DNA of 54,559 bases from Methanothermococcus sp. (lineage in GTDB: Archaea > AGJL01 > Methanococci > Methanococcales > Methanococcaceae): contig NZ_WAKW01000049.1 of assembly GCF_015523155.1 (NCBI RefSeq), forward strand, positions 1 through 54,559, in the 5' to 3' direction. The notes below the pieces were generated by a model, which was not told the DNA's origin, ran no database searches, and saw only the letters and a list, made by a program, of their open reading frames with translations. The position numbers and the translations under genes were made by a program. Within the stretch, counting starts at the first letter, position 1; every line of letters starts with the position of its first letter. Of this stretch, positions 1,572-26,778 are shown one piece after another.

Positions 1572-2465
1572 TTAATTTTTTATTTTTAATTTTTTATTTT
1601 TTAACAGTATATTATCCCCCACCTCAACTCCGACCATTTCGGCGATAGGGAGACATTTTGCTTTAAATATATAATATATTGGCTGTTCGATGTCATATTC
1701 AGTTAAACTTTCGAAGTTGCCCATGCCTTTTGCTATAATTATGTCCGCTTCTCTAAATTCTTTCAAGAATTCCTCTGATGATTCTTCTAATCTAACACCT
1801 ATGGCGTCATTTCCGCTTGTAATTACTTTTGCAATCTTATCAATTCCTGCAATTCTTGCATCATCAAGTGTGGCATCATTTAGTATAGGGGCCCCTTTAA
1901 CAGAAACTACAACATCGCAGTAGTTTTTTAACTCTTCAATTAGTATTTTATCAAATACCACTTCACCGGCATTATCGCAGATATACAATATTTTATTTGC
2001 ATCTTTTAAATCATTCAATAACTCTTTACTATGGTCTATTTTTAGTTTCCCACTTAGTGTTTCTTCTATTTTTTTATTAATATCTATATCTGTGCTATAT
2101 GGTCCAAAATCTATAACATTGCCTGCTATGGTTAATTTAACTTTACATATTATCCTGTTTAATGGATTATAGTCATTACATAGTTTTAACTCATCTTTCA
2201 ATTTTTCCAAATAATTTAATGCTATTTCGTTTGCAGTATCTTTTAATCTTTTATAAGGGTCAGGATTTCCGCTTATTTTTTTTAGATATCTATGAACAGT
2301 AGTTCCCATCCATGCTGCAACTGCATCTTCTCCATAAATTTTCTCTATAACTCCCAAACAGGCTTTTATTAGATTAAACTGTTCTTTCTCATTGTTTGAT
2401 ATTTCTTTTGAGGCATCTACGACCTGTCTTACAATACATGTTGCACATTCTGGTTTAATCTTCAA
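1572..2465 (-). CDS. DUF89 / ARMT1-like damage-control phosphatase family protein
   Basis: MKIKPECATCIVRQ N-terminus, CDNAGEVVFD and IIAKGMGNFESL motifs typical of archaeal DUF89. Confidence 0.85.
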   Translation of the reverse strand: MKIKPECATCIVRQVVDASKEISNNEKEQFNLIKACLGVIEKIYGEDAVAAWMGTTVHRYLKKISGNPDPYKRLKDTANEIALNYLEKLKDELKLCNDYNPLNRIICKVKLTIAGNVIDFGPYSTDIDINKKIEETLSGKLKIDHSKELLNDLKDANKILYICDNAGEVVFDKILIEELKNYCDVVVSVKGAPILNDATLDDARIAGIDKIAKVITSGNDAIGVRLEESSEEFLKEFREADIIIAKGMGNFESLTEYDIEQPIYYIFKAKCLPIAEMVGVEVGDNILLKNKKLKIKN

Positions 2466-2516
2466 GAAATCACCTTTTTATATTTATTACTTTTCTATAA
2501 TGTAATTATATATAAC

Positions 2517-2888
2517 CTATTTAAATAGTATCAATGAAATCAGCTTCCCAAGATAAACCATGCCAATACATCCAAAAACATTTAAAAGTATATTTATTAT
2601 AAATTTTAAGATATATCCTTCGTCCAGTAGTGAAAAGGTTTCATAACTAAATGTTGAAAATGTAGTTAATGCCCCACAAAATCCAGTAATGATTAAAAGC
2701 CGGCATTCTGGTGAAATGTCCAATGTTAATGAAGAATACATAATAAAACCAATTATAAAACTCCCTATTAAATTAACAATGAGCGTACCTGTGGGTAATC
2801 CAAATTTAACTGGAATAATACCACTTATTATATATCGTAATATTGCTCCAATAAATCCTCCAACACCTATTATTAAGAGTTCTCTCAC
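2517..2888 (-). CDS. crcB: Fluoride ion transporter CrcB/Fluc
   Basis: GGFIGAILRY, GTLIVNLIGSFIIGF, GFCGALTTFSTFSYE signatures. Confidence 0.95.
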   Translation of the reverse strand: MRELLIIGVGGFIGAILRYIISGIIPVKFGLPTGTLIVNLIGSFIIGFIMYSSLTLDISPECRLLIITGFCGALTTFSTFSYETFSLLDEGYILKFIINILLNVFGCIGMVYLGKLISLILFK

Positions 2889-2968
2889 ATTTTCACCAAT
2901 AAATATTTATATACCATGAGGACAATGTATAACAAGGATGTAAAATAAATATATATTACCTATGATAA

Positions 2969-3043
2969 GGGCCCGTAGTTTAGCCTGGATAGAATACGGG
3001 GCTTCGGACCCCGTGATCGAGGGTTCAAATCCCTCCGGGCTCG
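2969..3043 (+). tRNA. tRNA-Arg(TCG)
   Basis: GGGCCCGTAGTTTAGCC...CGGGGCTTCGGACCCCG...GGTTCAAATCCCTCCGGGCTCG; anticodon loop CTTCGGA. Confidence 0.93.
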
Positions 3044-3114
3044 TATTTTTATAATACATTTTTATAACTTATTTTAGGTTCCAACCGAAGCGAGGTTGGG
3101 CTTTTATAAAATAA

Positions 3115-3669
3115 TTAATTATCATTTTCCATAGCCATTTTTAATATTTTTTCTAAATTATTTAAATAGGTAGCATAATCTCCCTCATTAATAACAACAT
3201 AATCAGCCAAAGATATTACCCTTCCAATGGAAAACTCCAATTCTCTTAAATCCCTTTCAACAAATTTAGCCCATTCTGATGCATCATCTTCTCTTTTTCT
3301 TGATTTTAACCTGTTAAATCGGGTTTTCGGTGAAGAATGTATTGCAATAATTGTTAATGGATGGAATTTTCTAAAATATTTAACCTCATACATACTTCGT
3401 ATGCCCTCTATGATAACTATTTCTTCGTTATTATAATTTTCCTCTATATATTGAAGACATGGAACTGCTACTGCCTCGTTTCCATATTTTTTCCTTAATT
3501 CTACTGCTGTATTTCCTACATTTTCGGGATTTAATTCCAATCCCTTTTTCATAGTTTCATGACGAACTACGTCCCCCATAGAAATTACTGGTATATTGTA
3601 TTTTCTTGCTATTTCTATTATTGCACTTTTTCCAGAACCTGGCATTCCTGTAATACCTATCAATTTCAT
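3115..3669 (-). CDS. Archaeal UPF0200-type P-loop nucleotide kinase-like protein (dephospho-CoA-kinase-like fold)
   Basis: [15 protein letters not shown] Walker [12 protein letters not shown]; typical UPF0200 length and sequence. Confidence 0.8.
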
Positions 3670-3677
3670 AATATCCC

Positions 3678-3872
3678 TTAATTTACAGTTTTTAATGCAT
3701 TCATTGTGGCATCAGATGTTTTATTTATAATTTCTATGTTTGTATTTTTAACATTTATTGCAGATTTTAGCATATAATACCCAAGCAATGCTGCTGCGGT
3801 TATGCCTGCAAACATGAGAATAGAAAATTCTAAGCTAATCTGCCCTCTACAAGAGCATATTTTTTTTATCAT
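3678..3872 (-). CDS. Class III signal-peptide (QxSxExxxL) type IV pilin-like small protein
   Basis: [35 protein letters not shown]: class III prepilin cleavage motif followed by a hydrophobic segment. Confidence 0.85.
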
Positions 3873-3961
3873 AAAACCACCAAAGTTATGATAAAGTATA
3901 TTTTAATTAAATATGATATATGTTATTCTTTTTATATAAATAATTTAATTTTGGTGATATC

Positions 3962-6475
3962 TTGATTATAATAAGAAAACTAAAAAAGAAAAAACAAAAA
4001 CAAGAGCTCGAAATAATTGACCTTATATATAACATAAAATATTACGGCACTTTAAGAGGGACGAACACTAAATTAAGTATATATAAATGTAAGGAGGAAA
4101 AAGATGGGAACATAAAACCAATTCAGCCTTCAAAAGTGATGAATGTCCTAAAAACTAGTAAAAAGGTTTATTTAAATAATGACGAAGAATCATTAAAATT
4201 AGAAGATTTTTTAAAACAGAATAATATCAAATATGATTACATAGAGCTCTGCCCATTCTGTCTAATAAAAGGGAGATACAACGAAATAGATAAAAGCAAC
4301 AGATACAGATTTTATAACCAATATATATGTTTTGACTGTGCAGTAGAGGAAGTTAAACATGAAGTGAATATTAACGAGGAATTTATAGAAAAACTTTTAC
4401 GAAGATTTAAAGATGTAAATAAAGTAATAGATTTATTTGTTATGAAAAATCCCCTGGATAACCCTGATTTAACAAAATATGATGTTTTAACGGGTAGTGA
4501 AGAGGATAAAATAGAAAACTATAAAATAGACCAGTTGAATATTCCCTATGAATTAAAAGAAATTATAAAAAACAGAGGCATAAAGGAGCTCCTACCAGTT
4601 CAAACACTTGCCGTTAAAGGAGGCTTATTGGATGGAAAGGATTTGATAATTACCTCTGCAACATCCTCTGGAAAAACCCTTATTGGGGAATTGGCAGGTA
4701 TAAAAAATTTAAAGGAAGGTAGGGGGAAATTATTATTTTTGGTTCCGCTTGTAGCATTGGCAAATCAGAAATATATTGAATTTAAAGAACGTTATGAAAA
4801 AATGGGGCTAACTGTTAGTTTAAGAGTAGGTATGGGGAGATTGTCAGAGGATAAATCAGAATTCATAAACACGGATATAAATGCCGATATTGTTGTTGGA
4901 ACCTATGAGGGTATTGATTTTTTGGTTAGGTCTGGAAAATTAAGGGAGGTAGGAACTGTTGTAATTGATGAAGTTCATTCATTGAATATGGAAGAGAGGG
5001 GAGCTCGCCTTGACGGACTTATAAGCAGGTTGAGGTATTTAAAAAACATCTTAAAAAGTAATATCCAAATGATATATTTGTCCGCCACGGTGGGAAATCC
5101 AGAGGAGCTCGCAAAGAATCTCAATGCAAATGTGGTTATATATAATGGAAGACCTGTTCCCCTTGAAAGACATATTATTTTTGCTAAAAACGATTATAAT
5201 AAATTAAATTTAATAAAAGAAATCGTTAAAAAAGAGTTTAACACAAAATCAAAATATGGATTTAGAGGTCAGAGCTTAATATTTACCTATTCAAGAAAAA
5301 GGGCGGAATATATTTCGAATTTCTTAAATACAAAGGGAATAAAATCGGATTACTACCATGGGGGTATGGAGTATAAAAGAAGGAGAATGGTGGAGGATAA
5401 TTTTTTAAATCAAAAAATTATGTGCGTAGTTACAACAGCAGCACTTGCAGCAGGTGTGGATTTTCCAGCATCCACAGTAGTTCTTGAAAGTTTAGCCATG
5501 GGCGGAGATTGGCTTAATCCATCAGAATTCCAGCAAATGTGCGGTAGAGCAGGTAGAAAAGGCATGCATGATAGGGGAAAGGTCTATATGCTTGTGGAAA
5601 TTGGTAAAAAATACCATGCTAAAATGGGAAACACCGAGGACGAAGTGGCATTTAAACTACTGAGCTCAGAAGCTGAGGATGTTGTGGTGGAATATACTGA
5701 GGATGAAGAACTGGAACAGATACTTGCCAGTGTGGGCTCTATTGAAAGATATTTAAAATCGTTTAATAGCAATACATCAGTTAATAAAAATGAATTAAAT
5801 AAGGTTCCATTAATGGGGAGAAATCACGATTTAGATTATATTATTGGTAAATTAAACGACTATCATATGATAAAATCCTATAACAACAAAATAGACATTA
5901 CAAAATATGGCTATACTACGGCAATATCATTCTTATATCCTAAGGATGCCGAGCTCATTCGAACTAATTTAAATAAACCAATTATGGATTTAACTGCTCT
6001 AATAAACCCCTTTGAGAATTTATACGTCCCAAATAATATAAAAAATAAGATTTCAAAAATAATTCATACCAATATTCCAACAAGGTTTATAGATGCCTTT
6101 GAGATTGTAAAGGAAAATATTTCAAAAATAACCGATAGGGATTTAAGAGATAGGATTCTACCGTGGATGATAGAATTTGAAGGTATGATTGAAGAGGATA
6201 TAATAAAATATTTCTCAAAATATATATTAAATCTAAGGATAAACAAAAAAACTCCATCGCAGATTTCAAAGATTATCTATGAAAATTTCAATCTACAAAC
6301 CTATTCGGGGGATATATATTCATACCTTGAAAATACAATAAAAATTCTGGATGCAGTTGAAAGGATAGGAACTATTTATAACAAAAATATATCAAACGAA
6401 GCAAGAGAGTTTAAAGAGAATATTTCGAATCCTTATAGACATAAATATATACATAAAAATGAAAAAATAAAATAA
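3962..6475 (+). CDS. Ski2-like DEAD/DEAH-box helicase with N-terminal zinc-ribbon-like Cys motifs
   Basis: TSATSSGKTLIGE (Walker A), DEVHSL (box II), YLSATVGNP, QMCGRAGRKG; N-terminal CPFC...CFDC. Initiation apparently at TTG. Confidence 0.9.
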   Translation: MIIIRKLKKKKQKQELEIIDLIYNIKYYGTLRGTNTKLSIYKCKEEKDGNIKPIQPSKVMNVLKTSKKVYLNNDEESLKLEDFLKQNNIKYDYIELCPFCLIKGRYNEIDKSNRYRFYNQYICFDCAVEEVKHEVNINEEFIEKLLRRFKDVNKVIDLFVMKNPLDNPDLTKYDVLTGSEEDKIENYKIDQLNIPYELKEIIKNRGIKELLPVQTLAVKGGLLDGKDLIITSATSSGKTLIGELAGIKNLKEGRGKLLFLVPLVALANQKYIEFKERYEKMGLTVSLRVGMGRLSEDKSEFINTDINADIVVGTYEGIDFLVRSGKLREVGTVVIDEVHSLNMEERGARLDGLISRLRYLKNILKSNIQMIYLSATVGNPEELAKNLNANVVIYNGRPVPLERHIIFAKNDYNKLNLIKEIVKKEFNTKSKYGFRGQSLIFTYSRKRAEYISNFLNTKGIKSDYYHGGMEYKRRRMVEDNFLNQKIMCVVTTAALAAGVDFPASTVVLESLAMGGDWLNPSEFQQMCGRAGRKGMHDRGKVYMLVEIGKKYHAKMGNTEDEVAFKLLSSEAEDVVVEYTEDEELEQILASVGSIERYLKSFNSNTSVNKNELNKVPLMGRNHDLDYIIGKLNDYHMIKSYNNKIDITKYGYTTAISFLYPKDAELIRTNLNKPIMDLTALINPFENLYVPNNIKNKISKIIHTNIPTRFIDAFEIVKENISKITDRDLRDRILPWMIEFEGMIEEDIIKYFSKYILNLRINKKTPSQISKIIYENFNLQTYSGDIYSYLENTIKILDAVERIGTIYNKNISNEAREFKENISNPYRHKYIHKNEKIK

Positions 6476-19273: not shown

Positions 19274-20014
19274 TTATTTAAAAAATTTTACAAATGCATA
19301 TAGATTTGTAAATGGGTGTGGAGGGCATCCTGGGATATATAAATCCACAGGTAATATTTTATCAACCCCGCCAACCACTTCCTCGTTTTCCCTAAATATT
19401 CCTCCCGATATTGCACATGTGCCAACTGCAACAACAAATTTTGGAGAAGGAGTTGCATCGTATGTTTTCATAAGTGCAAGCTCCATATTTTTTGTGATAG
19501 GTCCTGTAACTACAAGACCATCCGCATGTCTTGGTGATGCCACAAATTTAATACCAAACCTGGACAAGTCATAAACTGGTGTATTTAAAACATTTATATC
19601 GGCATCACAGGCATTACAGCCACCAGCACAAACTTCCCTCATATACACGGATTTTCCAAATAATTTTTTTATAGTTTTTAAACTGCTTGTATCTGGTTCT
19701 TTTAAGGTATCTTTTATAATCAAATCTTCCCTTTTTAAGACAAACATCCTATAATCTCTTGTAAATCTTATAAAATTCTGTTTTATGGACTGACATTTAC
19801 CACAAAATAGGCATTTTCCCATATCCAAAGTTCTTTCATCTGGGTTTATTGCATCTGCTGGACATAAAGATGCCACCTTTTGCACATCTTCATCAGATGC
19901 ATTAGGATTTAAAATTGGTCTTCCCCTATATGCCTCAGGGAGCTGTATATTATCGCTGGGAAATTCAACCGTTCTATACCCTTGCCTTATCCTATTGCTA
20001 AGTATGTTGTTCAT
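19274..20014 (-). CDS. Group-4 [NiFe]-hydrogenase-like small subunit (HyfI/NuoB-like) fused to a ferredoxin-type domain
   Basis: CAGGCNACDADI, VGTCAISGG, PGCPPHP (proximal cluster ligands); N-term LCPADAI...CLFCGKC. Confidence 0.9.
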   Translation of the reverse strand: MNNILSNRIRQGYRTVEFPSDNIQLPEAYRGRPILNPNASDEDVQKVASLCPADAINPDERTLDMGKCLFCGKCQSIKQNFIRFTRDYRMFVLKREDLIIKDTLKEPDTSSLKTIKKLFGKSVYMREVCAGGCNACDADINVLNTPVYDLSRFGIKFVASPRHADGLVVTGPITKNMELALMKTYDATPSPKFVVAVGTCAISGGIFRENEEVVGGVDKILPVDLYIPGCPPHPFTNLYAFVKFFK

Positions 20015-20026
20015 ATATACACCTCA

Positions 20027-21637
20027 TTAAAGGTCAAAACCACAGTATGATAGATTAAAACTTTTGTTGCACAGTGGAAAGTCATATATCCCTTCATTTC
20101 TAACCGCTAATTCAAGTGCTGTCCAATTGTGGAATGATGGGTCTTTTATTTTATATCTTATTATATTTCCATTTTCATCGGTAATTATGCAGTGGGAGAG
20201 CTCACCCCTCCAAGCCTCCTCCATAGTTATTATAAAGCTGTTAGGTTTTAATGTAATTTCTTCTAATTTTTTACTATTGCCATTATTATTACTGCTGTTA
20301 TTATTACTGTTAATTTTTAAATCTGAGACTTTAAGAAGACCCATACAAAACTCTATGGAATCGAGTGTTTCATAAAAGTATGTTTTTGCTCTGGAACTAA
20401 CAGCCCCGTCTTTTCTAACCACAAGTTCTATACCGCGGTCGTAAATATTTTTAGCCTTTGAAAAACTCTTCCTTACATCATATTCGATTCCTGAAGCCCT
20501 GCCTGCTGGACCTACAAGACCTATTAACTTGGCTGTTTCTGTATCTACCATACCTGTGTAGTCAAATCTTCCAAGAACTTCTGGGTTATCGAGCATTAGG
20601 TTTCCAACATCAATAACCTCTTTTTTAAGTTTTTCAAACCTTCTAATGAGTTCTACAATATGACTATCACTGAGTTTAAACGGGACTCCAAATGGTTGAA
20701 CTGAGCTCCTGCCAAATCTATTTCCACATATAAATACAAACATATTGAGGAAGTCCCCTCTGATTCTACCATAGTATGATGCAGTCGGTAGATACCCAAC
20801 ATCCCCTGCAAGACCTCCTAAGGTTCCAATATGGTTTGCGATTCTTTCTATTTCTAACAATAACCTTCTATAATTTAATAAAGGTTCATTCGCCACATAA
20901 TCACATAACCCTTCAATAGCTTCTGAAAAACAAATACTGTTTCCTATTACAGTATCTCCTGCCACTGATTCAATTAAAGGAGGTAATATCTTTTTTTTAC
21001 AGGTTATAAGCTGTTTTTCAATGCCCCTGTGCTGATATCCATGCTGTATTTCAAGATTTAAAATAGTTTCACCAATACAGTTAAATCTAAAATGTCCTGG
21101 CTCAATAATTCCAGCATGAACAGGCCCAACTGCAACCTGATGTATTTCTTCTCCTTCGACTTCATAGAATGGGTAATTTCCAGGAATTGGCATAGTGTAA
21201 TCGTTTCCAAATACATCAGGATTTCCAGTATAATTTTTATGATATCTAACAGGTTTAAGCCAAGGGTGATTTTTTGGCACAATTCCAAATTGTTCTGCAA
21301 TTTCTCTTTCAAACATGTGGAATTTAATATCATACTGTGAAAGGGATTCATAAGAATTACCAACTATGGTGCTTATCACATACAATCCGCCGTCATTTCT
21401 TAAAACTGTATATATTTTATAGCTAGTTTTATTTTTATTGTTATTTTCATTATTATTTTTATTGTTGGTTGTATCACCTTTAATTCCATAGCAAGGGACT
21501 GCAAAATGCTGAACAACATATCCTGTTTTTGTAAATTTCAAAATTTTATCTTTAAACTCATCAAAAGTTAATAATGGTATATCTTCAATATTTACAGCAA
21601 CTCCGTTCTCAATTTTTAATAATCCCATTCTATTCAC
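20027..21637 (-). CDS. Hydrogenase-like large subunit (NuoC+NuoD/HyfG-like) lacking Ni-Fe cysteine motifs (Ehr-type)
   Basis: GPVHAGIIEPGHFRF, HGYQHRGIEK, then LIESVAGDTVIGNS where RxCGxC is expected; C-term DFPLCNKSFNLSYCGFDL where DPCxxC is expected. Confidence 0.88.
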   Translation of the reverse strand: MNRMGLLKIENGVAVNIEDIPLLTFDEFKDKILKFTKTGYVVQHFAVPCYGIKGDTTNNKNNNENNNKNKTSYKIYTVLRNDGGLYVISTIVGNSYESLSQYDIKFHMFEREIAEQFGIVPKNHPWLKPVRYHKNYTGNPDVFGNDYTMPIPGNYPFYEVEGEEIHQVAVGPVHAGIIEPGHFRFNCIGETILNLEIQHGYQHRGIEKQLITCKKKILPPLIESVAGDTVIGNSICFSEAIEGLCDYVANEPLLNYRRLLLEIERIANHIGTLGGLAGDVGYLPTASYYGRIRGDFLNMFVFICGNRFGRSSVQPFGVPFKLSDSHIVELIRRFEKLKKEVIDVGNLMLDNPEVLGRFDYTGMVDTETAKLIGLVGPAGRASGIEYDVRKSFSKAKNIYDRGIELVVRKDGAVSSRAKTYFYETLDSIEFCMGLLKVSDLKINSNNNSSNNNGNSKKLEEITLKPNSFIITMEEAWRGELSHCIITDENGNIIRYKIKDPSFHNWTALELAVRNEGIYDFPLCNKSFNLSYCGFDL

Positions 21638-21638
21638 C

Positions 21639-23057
21639 TCAATGCAGTAAAAAATTCAAAACATATTCTTGATAGGGACTAAACATAAGGATAGTTATTA
21701 TAAATGAAAGAAACAATAATATCAAACTTGGACCATATAATCCAAAGCTTTCTTTAAGGGGTTTAACAACCTTATACTCTTTAGATTTGCTATAACATAT
21801 AGATATAATCTTTTTAGAAAATCCTGCAATTACCAATATTAATCCAATTATTAATAACAACCCGACTATATAATGATGTCCTGCAAATGCCCCAAATATT
21901 ATCAACAACTCGCTTAGGAACAGTCCAAGGGGCGGAAATCCTGTGATACCTATGGCACCAAGTGTAAATGCAAATGCAGTTTTTGGCAATATTTTAAAGA
22001 AGTTTGTTATATTTGATATCTCCTTTGTGCCATATTGAAGGAGCATATTTCCAGTAGCTAAGAATAGGGCACATTTGATAAGTGAGTGATTTATCATGTG
22101 AAAAATTGACCCTAAAAACGCAATTCCGCCAATTCCTGCCCCCAATGTGATAATGCCCATATTCTCAATACTTGAATATGCAAGCAATCTTTTATAATCT
22201 TTCTGGACTGGCATAAATGCGGCTGCAACAAATACTGAAAATAAACCAAGAGTTATCATCATACTGTTTGTGATTTCACCCAATCCAAAATGTCCGGCAA
22301 CAGTATCAAATTTGTATATTGGTAAAAATGCACAGTTCAGCAGTGCCCCCGAGAGTAGAGCCGATGCTGGACTTGGAGCCTCACCATGAGCATCTGATAA
22401 CCATATATGCATTGGAGCCAGACCTACCTTTGTTCCATATCCTATAAGTATAAATACAAATCCAATTAAAAACCACATTGGATTTATGGCTCCAGTATAT
22501 GCCATTAGATTAGAGAATAAAAGCCCCGAAATTTGTTCAGGTTGGCTAATTGATTGTAATATAATGAAAGAACCTAACAATGCGAGTGATATTCCAACGG
22601 AGCATGTAATTAGATATTTCCATGTAGCTACAATTGAATCTTTGGTTTTGTGTAGAAATATTAAGGGGGCACTTGAAATTGTTGTGGCTTCAATAGCTAT
22701 CCATGTAAGTATTATATGGTCAGATATTGCTGTTAAACTCATTGCAGATACAAAGAACAACAACATGGAGCTGTAAATATGTTCTGATTCATAGTGAGAG
22801 TTTTTAAGATAATCTATGGAGTAATAGGATACCATTAAAAACAACAATGAAATTAAAGCTAGCACTATTTTTCCAAGGGGTGTAATAAATATATAATTTT
22901 TTAACAAAATCATCTGATTGGGTTCAATGCATATGTATGCCGTAATAATACTTTGGATTATTGCCGTTAAAAAGGGGATATATCTTGTGAAATTTCCCCT
23001 TATAAAGTATGCAATAATGCCTGCCAATGCTGGTATTATAACTACTAATTCATCCAT
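21639..23057 (-). CDS. HyfF/NuoN-like proton-translocating antiporter-like subunit
   Basis: IALEATT-like AIEATTISSAPLIFL, GTKVGLAPMHIWLSDAHGEAPSPASALLSG, RLLAYSSIENMG. Confidence 0.92.
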   Translation of the reverse strand: MDELVVIIPALAGIIAYFIRGNFTRYIPFLTAIIQSIITAYICIEPNQMILLKNYIFITPLGKIVLALISLLFLMVSYYSIDYLKNSHYESEHIYSSMLLFFVSAMSLTAISDHIILTWIAIEATTISSAPLIFLHKTKDSIVATWKYLITCSVGISLALLGSFIILQSISQPEQISGLLFSNLMAYTGAINPMWFLIGFVFILIGYGTKVGLAPMHIWLSDAHGEAPSPASALLSGALLNCAFLPIYKFDTVAGHFGLGEITNSMMITLGLFSVFVAAAFMPVQKDYKRLLAYSSIENMGIITLGAGIGGIAFLGSIFHMINHSLIKCALFLATGNMLLQYGTKEISNITNFFKILPKTAFAFTLGAIGITGFPPLGLFLSELLIIFGAFAGHHYIVGLLLIIGLILVIAGFSKKIISICYSKSKEYKVVKPLKESFGLYGPSLILLFLSFIITILMFSPYQEYVLNFLLH

Positions 23058-23115
23058 ATTATACGCCTCTATTATTTAGCCTCTATTTATTTAATATAAT
23101 ATATATAGCCATTTT

Positions 23116-23745
23116 TTATTTTCGATACTCATTTGGACTATATAGTTTGTTAATTTGGTTAATTAATATTGTCATAAGCATTACACAGATGAGAACATCC
23201 AGAAGTATTCCAAATTCAACAACATACTGCATGTTTTTCCCAATCATTAAGCCCACAATAGATATTCCATTTTCAAGCATTAAGTACGATGATACCTGAG
23301 TGATTGCCTTTTTTCTAGCCATTAAAAGGAACAGTGCGGGAATTATTAATGCCATCCCTCCAATAAACAGTAGTTTTTTTGATATATCGAAATCTAAATA
23401 TCCCGACCATATATATAGTATCGAGATAACTATTAATCCGAAGAATAGAGACGCTTTATATCCTATCAATGGATTGAGTTCTCGTTTTAAATTTCCCCTT
23501 CTTGTGGTATATATAAGAAAACTTGGTATAAAGAAAGACCTTATAACTAAAGTACTTATGGCTATTATTAAACCATATGTTGTTATTTCTCCACCTCCAA
23601 GAACTATTGTTAGAGTTGATACTAAAAAACTTTGAAGGGCTATAATTTTAACCAGGGAGAATAATCTATGGGTATATAATGCAAATAATACCGTTCCAAT
23701 TATAAGTGCAATAATTAATTTTTGATAATATAATATTTCAATCAT
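23116..23745 (-). CDS. HyfE/HyfE-like membrane subunit (MrpC/NuoK-related)
   Basis: Position between HyfF- and HyfC-like genes; multi-TM; VSSYLMLENGISIVGLMI, LLDVLICVMLMTILINQI. Confidence 0.85.
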   Translation of the reverse strand: MIEILYYQKLIIALIIGTVLFALYTHRLFSLVKIIALQSFLVSTLTIVLGGGEITTYGLIIAISTLVIRSFFIPSFLIYTTRRGNLKRELNPLIGYKASLFFGLIVISILYIWSGYLDFDISKKLLFIGGMALIIPALFLLMARKKAITQVSSYLMLENGISIVGLMIGKNMQYVVEFGILLDVLICVMLMTILINQINKLYSPNEYRK

Positions 23746-24659
23746 TATTTCACCCCTATGGAGAATATTAAAGCAAGTGTGGCAATGGCAAATGATGATA
23801 TTAGAAATGTTGTATTTCTTGGAAGTTTATATCTAACACTAATTGATTCAAGAAGTCCTAATGCAGATGCTACTATAAACAATCCAACTATGAATATTAA
23901 ATAATTCAGAGCTCCTATATTGTAGTCTACTGGAAATATTAATCTTGAAAGTACCCCTCCAAAAAACAGGAATTTTAGAAATGATCCAAATTCCATCAAC
24001 CCTAAATCAGGACCACTGTTATCGAGAATCATTACTTCGTGAATCATGGTTAATTCAAGGTGTGTATCTGGGTCATCTATTGGTTTTCTTGCGTTTTCCA
24101 CAATTAATATCATAAATATAACGATTATGGACATTATAGCAAATATTCCTGCCTGATGCCATAAAATCTGAGCTCCAATATTTCCTAAAAATCCCATTAA
24201 ACTCGGAACTCCTGTAAGTTTTACCGCCAATATAAATGTCATAAATAAAGAACCCTCTGCCAAGAATGACATAAATGCCTCTCTACTGGCACCCATTCCT
24301 TCAAATGATGAGGCTGTGTTTAGTGAGCTTAGTAATAAAAAAAACCTACTTAATGCAAATAGATATACCACTACAATAAAGTCATAGTTAAATGAAATTA
24401 CTGGTTTTTCTCCTGCAATTGGAAAGAATAAAAGTGCCAGTAAGTAGGTAATTATTATAATTAGTGGTGCAAATCTGAATATCCATGTGGTGCTTTTGCT
24501 ATACACCAACTCCTTTTTTAAGAATCTTATCAAGTCGTAGTATTTGATAAATAATGAAGGTCCTTTTTTACCCACAGATACTGCCTTTATTTTATCAATT
24601 ACAGCTGGAAACAGCGGAGCAAGTGAAACGGTGAGAATATAGTATATTATAGATTCCAT
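23745..24659 (-). CDS. HyfC/NuoH-like membrane subunit
   Basis: GKKGPSLFIKYYDLIRFLKKE, ENARKPIDDPDTHLELTMIHEVMILDNSGPDLG. Confidence 0.92.
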   Translation of the reverse strand: MESIIYYILTVSLAPLFPAVIDKIKAVSVGKKGPSLFIKYYDLIRFLKKELVYSKSTTWIFRFAPLIIIITYLLALLFFPIAGEKPVISFNYDFIVVVYLFALSRFFLLLSSLNTASSFEGMGASREAFMSFLAEGSLFMTFILAVKLTGVPSLMGFLGNIGAQILWHQAGIFAIMSIIVIFMILIVENARKPIDDPDTHLELTMIHEVMILDNSGPDLGLMEFGSFLKFLFFGGVLSRLIFPVDYNIGALNYLIFIVGLFIVASALGLLESISVRYKLPRNTTFLISSFAIATLALIFSIGVK

Positions 24660-24660
24660 C

Positions 24661-26778
24661 CTACCACCTTATCAAATAAATGTATGCTAAAAGGACCGAT
24701 ATTAATACTATTACATAACCCATATAGTAGTTAAAGTTTCCATCTTTAAGGTATCTTAGCAACAACAATCCATATGAAATCGGTTTCACAAGTAATAATT
24801 CAAACACTGCTTCAGCCAAGTCTTTACTCTCTGAGTGATATTTGGCTTTACTTGGAAATATTCCCTCAACAGGTTTTTCATGGAGTTTTATAATTACAAA
24901 TGGTTTGAAGAATTCCACTATGGGACTGGCGTAGGATGATGCAGTATATTGCATTTTTGCAGTTGGAGCACTATAACCACAATCCCATGTATATCCATCA
25001 ACAGTTTTAGTTCTATATATTAAAGCTCTTATTACTACCAATATTGAAATAAGTGCTATTAATATTAAGTAAATTTCCGTTAGCTTTGGAAATACCGATA
25101 GTTGAGAACATGTTATTTCTACAAGATTTAAATTCTGTGCTATTTTTGTAATTGAATATACAAAGAATGTTGGAAGAATACCTATAATCACACAGATTAA
25201 AGCCAATATTATTTGAGGAATTCTCATGGAATATGGGGATTCTTTGGCATTGGCAGATGCCTTAGTTTTAGGTTCTCCCAAGAAAGATATTCCCAATACC
25301 TTGGTAAAACATGCCGTCGCAAGACCTCCTATAAGTGCCAGTGCAATGATGCCAAATGTGGATGCCGTTAATAGTCCAATCGAACTGTTAAGTCCGTTGA
25401 AACCACCCATATATATTAAGAGCTCACTTACAAACCCATTAAATGGAGGTATTCCAGATATTGCAAGAGAACCTATAAGGAAAGCCAAGCTTGTTGTAGG
25501 CATTCTTTTCATTAAACCTCCCATCTCTTCCAAAGAGTGTGTTCCTGTGGATTTTATCACAGCGCCAGCGCCCATAAATAGCAATGATTTAAATAGGGCG
25601 TGATTTAGAACGTGGAGGAGAGCTCCTGCAAATCCCAATAAGGCTATGGTTTCATTGTTATAATATTTTCCAATTAATCCAATACCCAATCCTATTAATA
25701 TAATTCCTATGTTTTCGACACTATGGTATGCAAGTAGTCTTTTAATGTCGTGTTGGGCAAGGGCATAAACCACTCCAAGAATTCCAGATAATATGCCCAA
25801 TATTAATATCAAATATCCAATGTAAATATTATTTATTCCAAGAAGCAATAAAAGCATGATAATTCCATAAATACCCATTTTAATCATGACACCAGACATT
25901 ACTGCTGAAACATGACTTGGTGCCACAGGATGTGCATACGGTAACCATGAGTGAAATGGAAATACCCCAGCTTTTGATGCAAAACCTATAAATCCAAGGA
26001 GAAATACTGCCATTTTTACGATATCAGGCATACTGGAAAAATGGTCAAAACTAATAGAGCCTGTGCTCATATATGCCAAGGCAAATGATGCGAATATGAA
26101 CATTCCTCCTGCATGAGTATATATCAAATAAATATAACCTGATTTTTTAACTTCCTCTTTGAATCCGTCAAACATAACTAGTAAGAATGATGAAATGGAC
26201 ATTAATTCCCAAAATAATAAGAAAATAATACTGTTGTTTGATATTGTAACTCCAACCATTGAAGCTACAAGAACTGCAAAGTTTAAATACTGAAATCCTA
26301 TTGCCAATTTTCTTTTTTTGTCATCCATATATCCATAGCTGTAAATTGCAGCCATTATTGAAACCAATAGCACGACAGCTGAAAAAAACATTGAGATTGG
26401 ATCTATTTTAAAACTCAATGGAATTAAATACCCCATTAGATATGTAAGTTCATAGGTTTTGTTATTTAATATAATAGTTATGGCGTATATACACCCCAAT
26501 AGAGAACCTACTGAGATGGTTAATATAGATATTATTCTTGATAAATTAAACCATTTCGAAAATAAAACACCCAATAAACCGCCCAACATAATAATAGCCA
26601 TACTTAGAATTATGGTGCTATGTGGTAGTATATCTCCATATTCAACTCCACTTGTCATGCCTATACCTGAGTTTGCCATTGCAGGAGATATAAAAATTAA
26701 TACCACAGATAAACACAAAAAATACATTAATTTTTTCTTTATATCTAATTTTGCTCTATTATATATCATAACAATCAC
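24661..26778 (-). CDS. HyfB/NuoL-like proton-translocating antiporter-like subunit, first gene of the operon
   Basis: WELMSISSFLLVMFDG, SKAGVFPFHSWLPYAHPVAPSHVSAVMSGVMIKMGIYG, RLLAYHSVENIGII. Confidence 0.92.
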   Translation of the reverse strand: MIVMIYNRAKLDIKKKLMYFLCLSVVLIFISPAMANSGIGMTSGVEYGDILPHSTIILSMAIIMLGGLLGVLFSKWFNLSRIISILTISVGSLLGCIYAITIILNNKTYELTYLMGYLIPLSFKIDPISMFFSAVVLLVSIMAAIYSYGYMDDKKRKLAIGFQYLNFAVLVASMVGVTISNNSIIFLLFWELMSISSFLLVMFDGFKEEVKKSGYIYLIYTHAGGMFIFASFALAYMSTGSISFDHFSSMPDIVKMAVFLLGFIGFASKAGVFPFHSWLPYAHPVAPSHVSAVMSGVMIKMGIYGIIMLLLLLGINNIYIGYLILILGILSGILGVVYALAQHDIKRLLAYHSVENIGIILIGLGIGLIGKYYNNETIALLGFAGALLHVLNHALFKSLLFMGAGAVIKSTGTHSLEEMGGLMKRMPTTSLAFLIGSLAISGIPPFNGFVSELLIYMGGFNGLNSSIGLLTASTFGIIALALIGGLATACFTKVLGISFLGEPKTKASANAKESPYSMRIPQIILALICVIIGILPTFFVYSITKIAQNLNLVEITCSQLSVFPKLTEIYLILIALISILVVIRALIYRTKTVDGYTWDCGYSAPTAKMQYTASSYASPIVEFFKPFVIIKLHEKPVEGIFPSKAKYHSESKDLAEAVFELLLVKPISYGLLLLRYLKDGNFNYYMGYVIVLISVLLAYIYLIRW

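Follow-up and report, generated by a model that had tools for sequence, protein, structure and literature searches.

We found that a 54,559-nucleotide stretch of DNA from the thermophilic methanogen Methanothermococcus sp. (contig NZ_WAKW01000049.1; hereafter the window) carries, at positions 19274 to 26778, six closely packed minus-strand genes for what we read as an intact, selectively maintained Ehr complex of the bacterial type, a minimal ion pump of the complex I/formate-hydrogenlyase kind that does not react with H2; we give this reading a probability of about 0.6. All six open reading frames proposed in an initial annotation made from the sequence alone are present in the order and on the strand claimed. 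They encode HyfB-, HyfC-, HyfE- and HyfF-like proteins, a NuoC-HyfG fusion (EhrL) and a ferredoxin-HyfI fusion (EhrS) (Table 1), and NCBIfam matches bear out the two antiporter-like subunits, HyfB and HyfF. As in Ehr, antiporter-like membrane subunits accompany a large and a small subunit of the group-4/complex-I-like kind, and the large one lacks both Ni-Fe CxxC motifs, which agrees with Ehr and disagrees with [NiFe] hydrogenase group 4. Gene order, the family-wide signature (AGDT ... NKSFNLSYxGxDL) and the grouping in trees uphold the earlier assignment to Ehr; the methanogen complex is a further member of an established family, one without a solved function.

Judged by sequence comparison, the Ni-Fe site of EhrL has been replaced by a different conserved site and has not merely been lost or left to decay. 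When EhrL is aligned with Escherichia coli HycE, HyfG and NuoCD and with both other large subunits from its own genome, A226, T229, S530 and G533 occupy the four Ni-Fe Cys columns, whereas the same columns are C, C, C and C in the catalytic enzymes and in the genome's two other large subunits. The L1 site reads IESVAGDTVIGNS and the protein ends at GFDL, so the absence of all four ligands and of a C-terminal extension, both first noticed by eye, holds. Across 89 homologues, the replaced columns are occupied by A80/S6/C2/V1, T79/S8/A1/E1, S88/N1 and G89, with entropies of 0 to 0.6 bits compared to a median of 1.71, which puts them within the best conserved quarter of the protein. E179, G227, F520, P521, N524, K525, S526, Y531 and D535 are invariant in these homologues, and D228 is kept in 88 of the 89. 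The ratio of nonsynonymous to synonymous substitution rates (dN/dS) between species is 0.08-0.23 over all six genes, indicating purifying selection. Since these columns are highly conserved and dN/dS is low, the former Ni-Fe site appears to have been exchanged rather than eroded.

EhrL contains no CxxC anywhere, which rules out displaced L1 or L2 motifs, and a sequencing error at the site is ruled out because two congeneric genomes (83-85% identity) and other homologues carry the same replacement. The AlphaFold2 model of EhrL has a mean predicted local distance difference test score of 88.5 and is uncertain in residues 172-180 and 532-536, the loops of the site; low certainty in the best conserved loops might reflect binding of a ligand or contact with partner subunits. 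The best solved fold match of the model is HycE (template modelling score 0.81), followed by NuoCD of complex I, and HycE also leads in the sequence-profile comparison; no Ehr structure was recognised among the solved-structure profile matches.

Phylogenetic analysis placed EhrL with Geobacter and other bacterial Ehr and apart from catalytic hydrogenases. Both the large and the small subunit fall with Ehr, and the proposal of a further group-4-like complex besides these two is supported by the genome's two other large subunits (Eha/Ehb type), neither of which clusters with EhrL. In the large- and small-subunit trees (54 and 53 rows, with other archaeal Ehr not among them), the methanogens join a Desulfobacterota-dominated clade (100/99 in each) nested in bacterial Ehr, and a topology that keeps all bacterial rows together without the methanogens is rejected (approximately unbiased test, p=0.0006). 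A third tree recovers all Ehr as monophyletic (100/100), with HycE/HyfG as sister and Eha/Ehb elsewhere. The best 80 relatives in the genome collection, from a scan that may leave out records near the window's own genome, are all bacterial, the top ones mostly Desulfobacterota with 46-49% identity over the full length, and the order B-C-E-F-G-I is identical in bacterial relatives. Ferredoxin cluster I is lost in the methanogens and in their Desulfobacterota-dominated sister clade alike, a loss that the wider Ehr family does not usually show. Since the nested position in two trees and the shared one-cluster ferredoxin domain make an old transfer from bacteria likely, the complex was most likely acquired from a Desulfobacterota-related line of bacterial Ehr, before this genus split into its carrier species. 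Carriers make up four of the 36 genomes of the order, which were covered by the order-level and phylum-level searches alike: the window genome, two congeners (G023 and G024) and a genome of another genus (G034), where the Ehr genes lie on a 5.4-kb contig. The other 32 lack the complex, and six-gene synteny is kept in the three genomes of the window's genus.

All four proximal-cluster Cys of EhrS are kept, in keeping with the CNAC, GTCA and GCPP motifs first reported. The extra CxxCxxC cluster described from the sequence is also present and can be refined, in that its three Cys form, together with the Cys of a CP motif (C51), a single [4Fe-4S] site in a HyfH-like domain; residues 2-105 give a weak NCBIfam HycF/HyfH-like match. 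The Cys of both clusters are conserved across the homologues compared, and HyfC E127, E135, E188, D195, E202 and E208 are near-invariant among them. The ion-path residues E191, K269, H276, K300 and K397 of HyfB and E123, K210 and K328 of HyfF are conserved as well. Because the cluster Cys and the ion-path residues of HyfC and the antiporter-like subunits are conserved, a redox-driven pump is plausible, and the complex may translocate ions. An Ehr operon on an Allomeiothermus silvanus plasmid keeps all six genes with a small subunit that lacks all four proximal-cluster Cys (AGNTGLDD, GNEA and PGSPA; L043:11266-12135), and this Ehr may possibly work without a proximal FeS cluster.

We infer the electron donor, coupling and direction of the complex to be as follows. 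A soluble low-potential carrier, either ferredoxin or a formate- or F420-linked partner, would deliver electrons to the fused [4Fe-4S] ferredoxin domain, from which they would pass by way of the proximal cluster to the remodelled large-subunit site. At this site, a non-H2 acceptor would replace protons, and HyfC would couple the redox step to the movement of H+ or Na+ through HyfB and HyfF. The complex might also run in reverse, with an ion gradient driving ferredoxin reduction during growth on formate. A bolder and rather doubtful version is that Ehr has, in place of Ni-Fe, a new redox site (G-D-T, N-K-S-F-N-L-S-Y-x-G-x-D-L) acting on a small substrate other than H2 or a quinone, and that in thermophilic formate-using methanogens an ion gradient would drive the supply of low-potential ferredoxin from formate, replacing H2-dependent Eha.

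Formate is the best functional lead, albeit a weak one. A formate transporter (PF01226, matches above cut-off) is present in 4/4 carriers compared to 10/32 non-carriers (one-sided Fisher p about 0.017, calculated by hand and uncorrected for kinship) and, within the two genera that contain carriers, in 4/4 carriers compared to 0/10 non-carriers; presence of FdhA or Pro_CA does not set carriers apart among the 36 genomes. In Geobacter, Ehr proteins reach higher levels on formate than when H2 is present (PMC7894505), and formate dehydrogenase-Ehr pairs have been suggested for other bacteria (PMC6349859). A published survey gives Methanotorris formicicus, Methanothermococcus okinawensis and M. thermolithotrophicus as the formate-growing thermophilic Methanococci (PMC10025317), and our guess is that these might be three of the carriers.

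Several observations weigh against our reading of the complex. No electron donor or acceptor gene adjoins the operon in the window, and neither does a formate dehydrogenase gene. Few independent contrasts lie behind the formate association, and the Methanococcus-like genus g2 has the formate transporter without the complex. In the carrier of another genus (L038, contig C72), HyfF and HyfG are each frameshifted (1651-3074 and 3071-4614), which reflects either sequencing error or beginning decay. In addition, the methanogen clade sits on a long stem branch; the transfer would therefore be old, with its donor and timing uncertain.

An unlikely but arguable alternative is a quinone-type oxidoreductase, in which the new pocket binds a quinone or another lipophilic carrier as in complex I. 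The position of the Ehr family between group-4 hydrogenases and complex I and the second-best fold match to NuoCD are in keeping with it, and many bacterial Ehr carriers have menaquinone. However, the site is near-identical in bacteria and Methanococcales, and the latter are not known to have quinones or methanophenazine, which makes a quinone an unlikely acceptor in these methanogens. Furthermore, Glu stands in the column of the NuoD quinone-ligand His, as it does in hydrogenases. E179 lies at the position of the proton-transfer Glu of group-4 hydrogenases, at which NuoD carries a different residue.

It seems to us very unlikely that the complex belongs to an inorganic-carbon system, with the membrane module powering the hydration of CO2 or the build-up of bicarbonate, in the manner of cyanobacterial NDH-1MS or DAB, and inorganic carbon is our second functional lead, a sub-threshold one without support in methanogens. 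Four loci of the nearest bacterial clade have an LCIB_C_CA-like gene (slightly below the Pfam cut-off) next to the Ehr operon, and a fifth has a gene for a true beta-carbonic anhydrase there; these neighbours lie upstream of the operon in some loci and downstream in others. On the other hand, the LCIB assignment has no PDB profile match, the gene was not found in any genome of the order in a search without a positive control, and no carbonic anhydrase gene lies beside the window operon.

That the complex is a functionless, drifting relic of a dead hydrogenase is highly improbable. The lost Ni-Fe ligands and the frameshifts in G034 would suit a relic, and a paper from 2026 considers the Ehr of Geobacter non-functional (PMC13194489), but the dN/dS values, the conserved cluster and channel residues, the six-gene synteny in three genomes of the genus and a replacement site that is near-invariant across many phyla do not. 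For the family, this conservation argues against a non-functional Ehr. A functional [NiFe] hydrogenase with displaced or unusual ligands has next to no chance despite its hydrogenase-like fold and subunits, best structural match to HycE and sister group HycE/HyfG, since it is refuted at the sequence level by the missing CxxC motifs, with A/T/S/G-type columns in the 89 homologues, no C-terminal extension and no HycI protease on the contig. The remark that no maturation protease gene lies nearby holds for the window's contig only, as HycI-type proteases do sit on three other contigs.

The intact Ehr complex can be set beside several known systems. Desulfobacterota Ehr (L049-L063) share 46-52% identity, the same six genes in order, a single-cluster ferredoxin domain and the sister position in two trees, but they reside in bacterial hosts and some have carbonic-anhydrase-like neighbours. 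Geobacter Ehr (GSU0739-45 in G. sulfurreducens; homologues L094 and L095) have the same subunit types, the same lack of Ni-Fe ligands, the replacement signature and a fused ferredoxin-type small subunit, while their operons contain extra HyfB-like genes and belong to another Ehr clade; Geobacter has menaquinone and cytochromes. The E. coli hydrogenases 3 and 4/formate hydrogenlyase (HycE, HyfG) have homologous subunits and a NuoC-type fusion in the large subunit, but differ in having both Ni-Fe CxxC motifs, a C-terminal extension with its protease, HycB/HyfA and a separate HycF/HyfH, and in HyfD, which the window complex lacks. Eha and Ehb are group-4-type membrane complexes of the same genome, but with all four Ni-Fe Cys kept and large subunits elsewhere in the tree. 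One of the genome's other large subunits belongs to a long operon that encodes many small membrane proteins and includes polyferredoxin-like genes, and we take it to be of the Eha type; the second stands alone, like the Ehb large subunit of related methanogens, and is presumably of the Ehb type. MBS and Mbx of Thermococcales are likewise hydrogenase-derived, act on something other than H2 and have altered Ni-Fe ligands. Since MbsL reaches 110 bits with the Ehr profile compared to 235 for HycE, MBS is not the nearest relative by score, a comparison of profile scores only, with MbsL and MbxL not in the tree. Complex I (NuoCD, NuoB, NuoH, NuoL/M/N) is built on the same modular plan, with electrons fed to the proximal cluster and with ion-path residues, but the window operon encodes neither an NADH module nor the NuoA/J/K set, and its large subunit has Glu for the quinone-ligand His of NuoD.

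Ehr was reportedly named and analysed by Coppi and by Marreiros 2013, and we found no methanogen Ehr in the literature searched, although an earlier mention in either is possible. The family has been reported in Geobacter, comammox Nitrospira, ammonia-oxidising archaea, candidate phyla radiation bacteria and others. Only eha, ehb, frh, vhu and hmd appear in a hydrogenase survey of thermophilic Methanococci (PMC10025317), so that the complex seems to have been overlooked there. Ehr is widespread and its function has been open since it was named in Geobacter; an intact, conserved Ehr in a methanogen not known to have quinones narrows the possible acceptors, and carriers and non-carriers within one order offer a natural comparison that makes the question of function testable. 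Our findings also suggest that an energy-conserving complex crossed from bacteria to archaea and that a lost Ni-Fe site became another conserved site rather than decaying.

Table 1. Features of the Ehr complex in the window and genes near Ehr operons in other loci (L numbers).
Feature	Position	Strand	Basis
HyfB-like antiporter-type subunit, 705 aa, GTG start as listed	24661..26778	-	NCBIfam hydrogenase 4 subunit B, 569 bits
HyfC/NuoH-like membrane subunit, 304 aa	23745..24659	-	PF00146
HyfE-like membrane subunit, 209 aa	23116..23745	-	NCBIfam hydrogenase 4 membrane subunit, 4e-14
HyfF-like antiporter-type subunit, 472 aa	21639..23057	-	NCBIfam hydrogenase 4 subunit F, 323 bits
EhrL, 536 aa: NuoC-like domain and HyfG/NuoD-like large subunit without Ni-Fe ligands	20027..21637	-	PF00346 Complex1_49kDa
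EPGHFRF motif, residues 179-185	21083..21103	-	alignment; E179 conserved 89/89
AGDT, residues 226-229, in place of L1 CGIC motif	20951..20962	-	alignments, conservation
DFPLCNKSFNLSYCGFDL, residues 519-536, in place of DPCxxC, ends protein	20030..20083	-	alignments, conservation
EhrS, 246 aa: HyfH-like single-cluster ferredoxin domain and HyfI/NuoB-like small subunit	19274..20014	-	PF01058 Oxidored_q6
C51 ... C68xxC71xxC74, one [4Fe-4S] site of ferredoxin domain	19793..19864	-	conservation, homologue comparison
C133-x-x-C136 of proximal cluster, with C200 and C230	19607..19618	-	conservation
LCIB_C_CA-like neighbours of Ehr operon	L049:12648-13829; L054:3527-4708; L055:3697-4869; L062:3-899		
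True beta-carbonic anhydrase (Pro_CA) neighbour of Ehr operon	L059:6940-7530		
PTS EIIA-HTH_17 fusion, examples	L069:4241-4951; L084; L101; L124		

The Complex1_30kDa match of EhrL lies slightly below the Pfam cut-off. The operon is flanked on one side by a valyl-tRNA-synthetase-type gene (identified by eye) and on the other by the prepilin peptidase EppA and a zf-like protein, and the whole block is syntenic in the two congeneric genomes. No NADH or F420H2 input-module gene was found beside the operon, which refers to its neighbours, as the genome was not searched for such modules. In both congeners, the Ehr operon and EppA are separated by a gene that looks nuclease- or defence-like by eye (L036:7924-8961 and L037:10893-11881); it is in two pieces in L037 and absent from the equivalent place in the window.

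In much of the wider Ehr family, a gene for a fusion of phosphotransferase system (PTS) EIIA and HTH_17 domains (PF00359 and PF12728) lies close to hyfB or directly upstream of it (35 loci), which suggests PTS-linked regulation of Ehr there; the fusion was not matched in the Desulfobacterota clade. Two Ehr-type operons lie close together in single loci of a Variovorax plasmid (L042) and of Verrucomicrobia (L107). A Rhodococcus plasmid (L044:4032-11320) shows an actinobacterial arrangement with a NuoB-like gene first, which seems to resemble Mycobacterium tuberculosis Rv0082-Rv0087.

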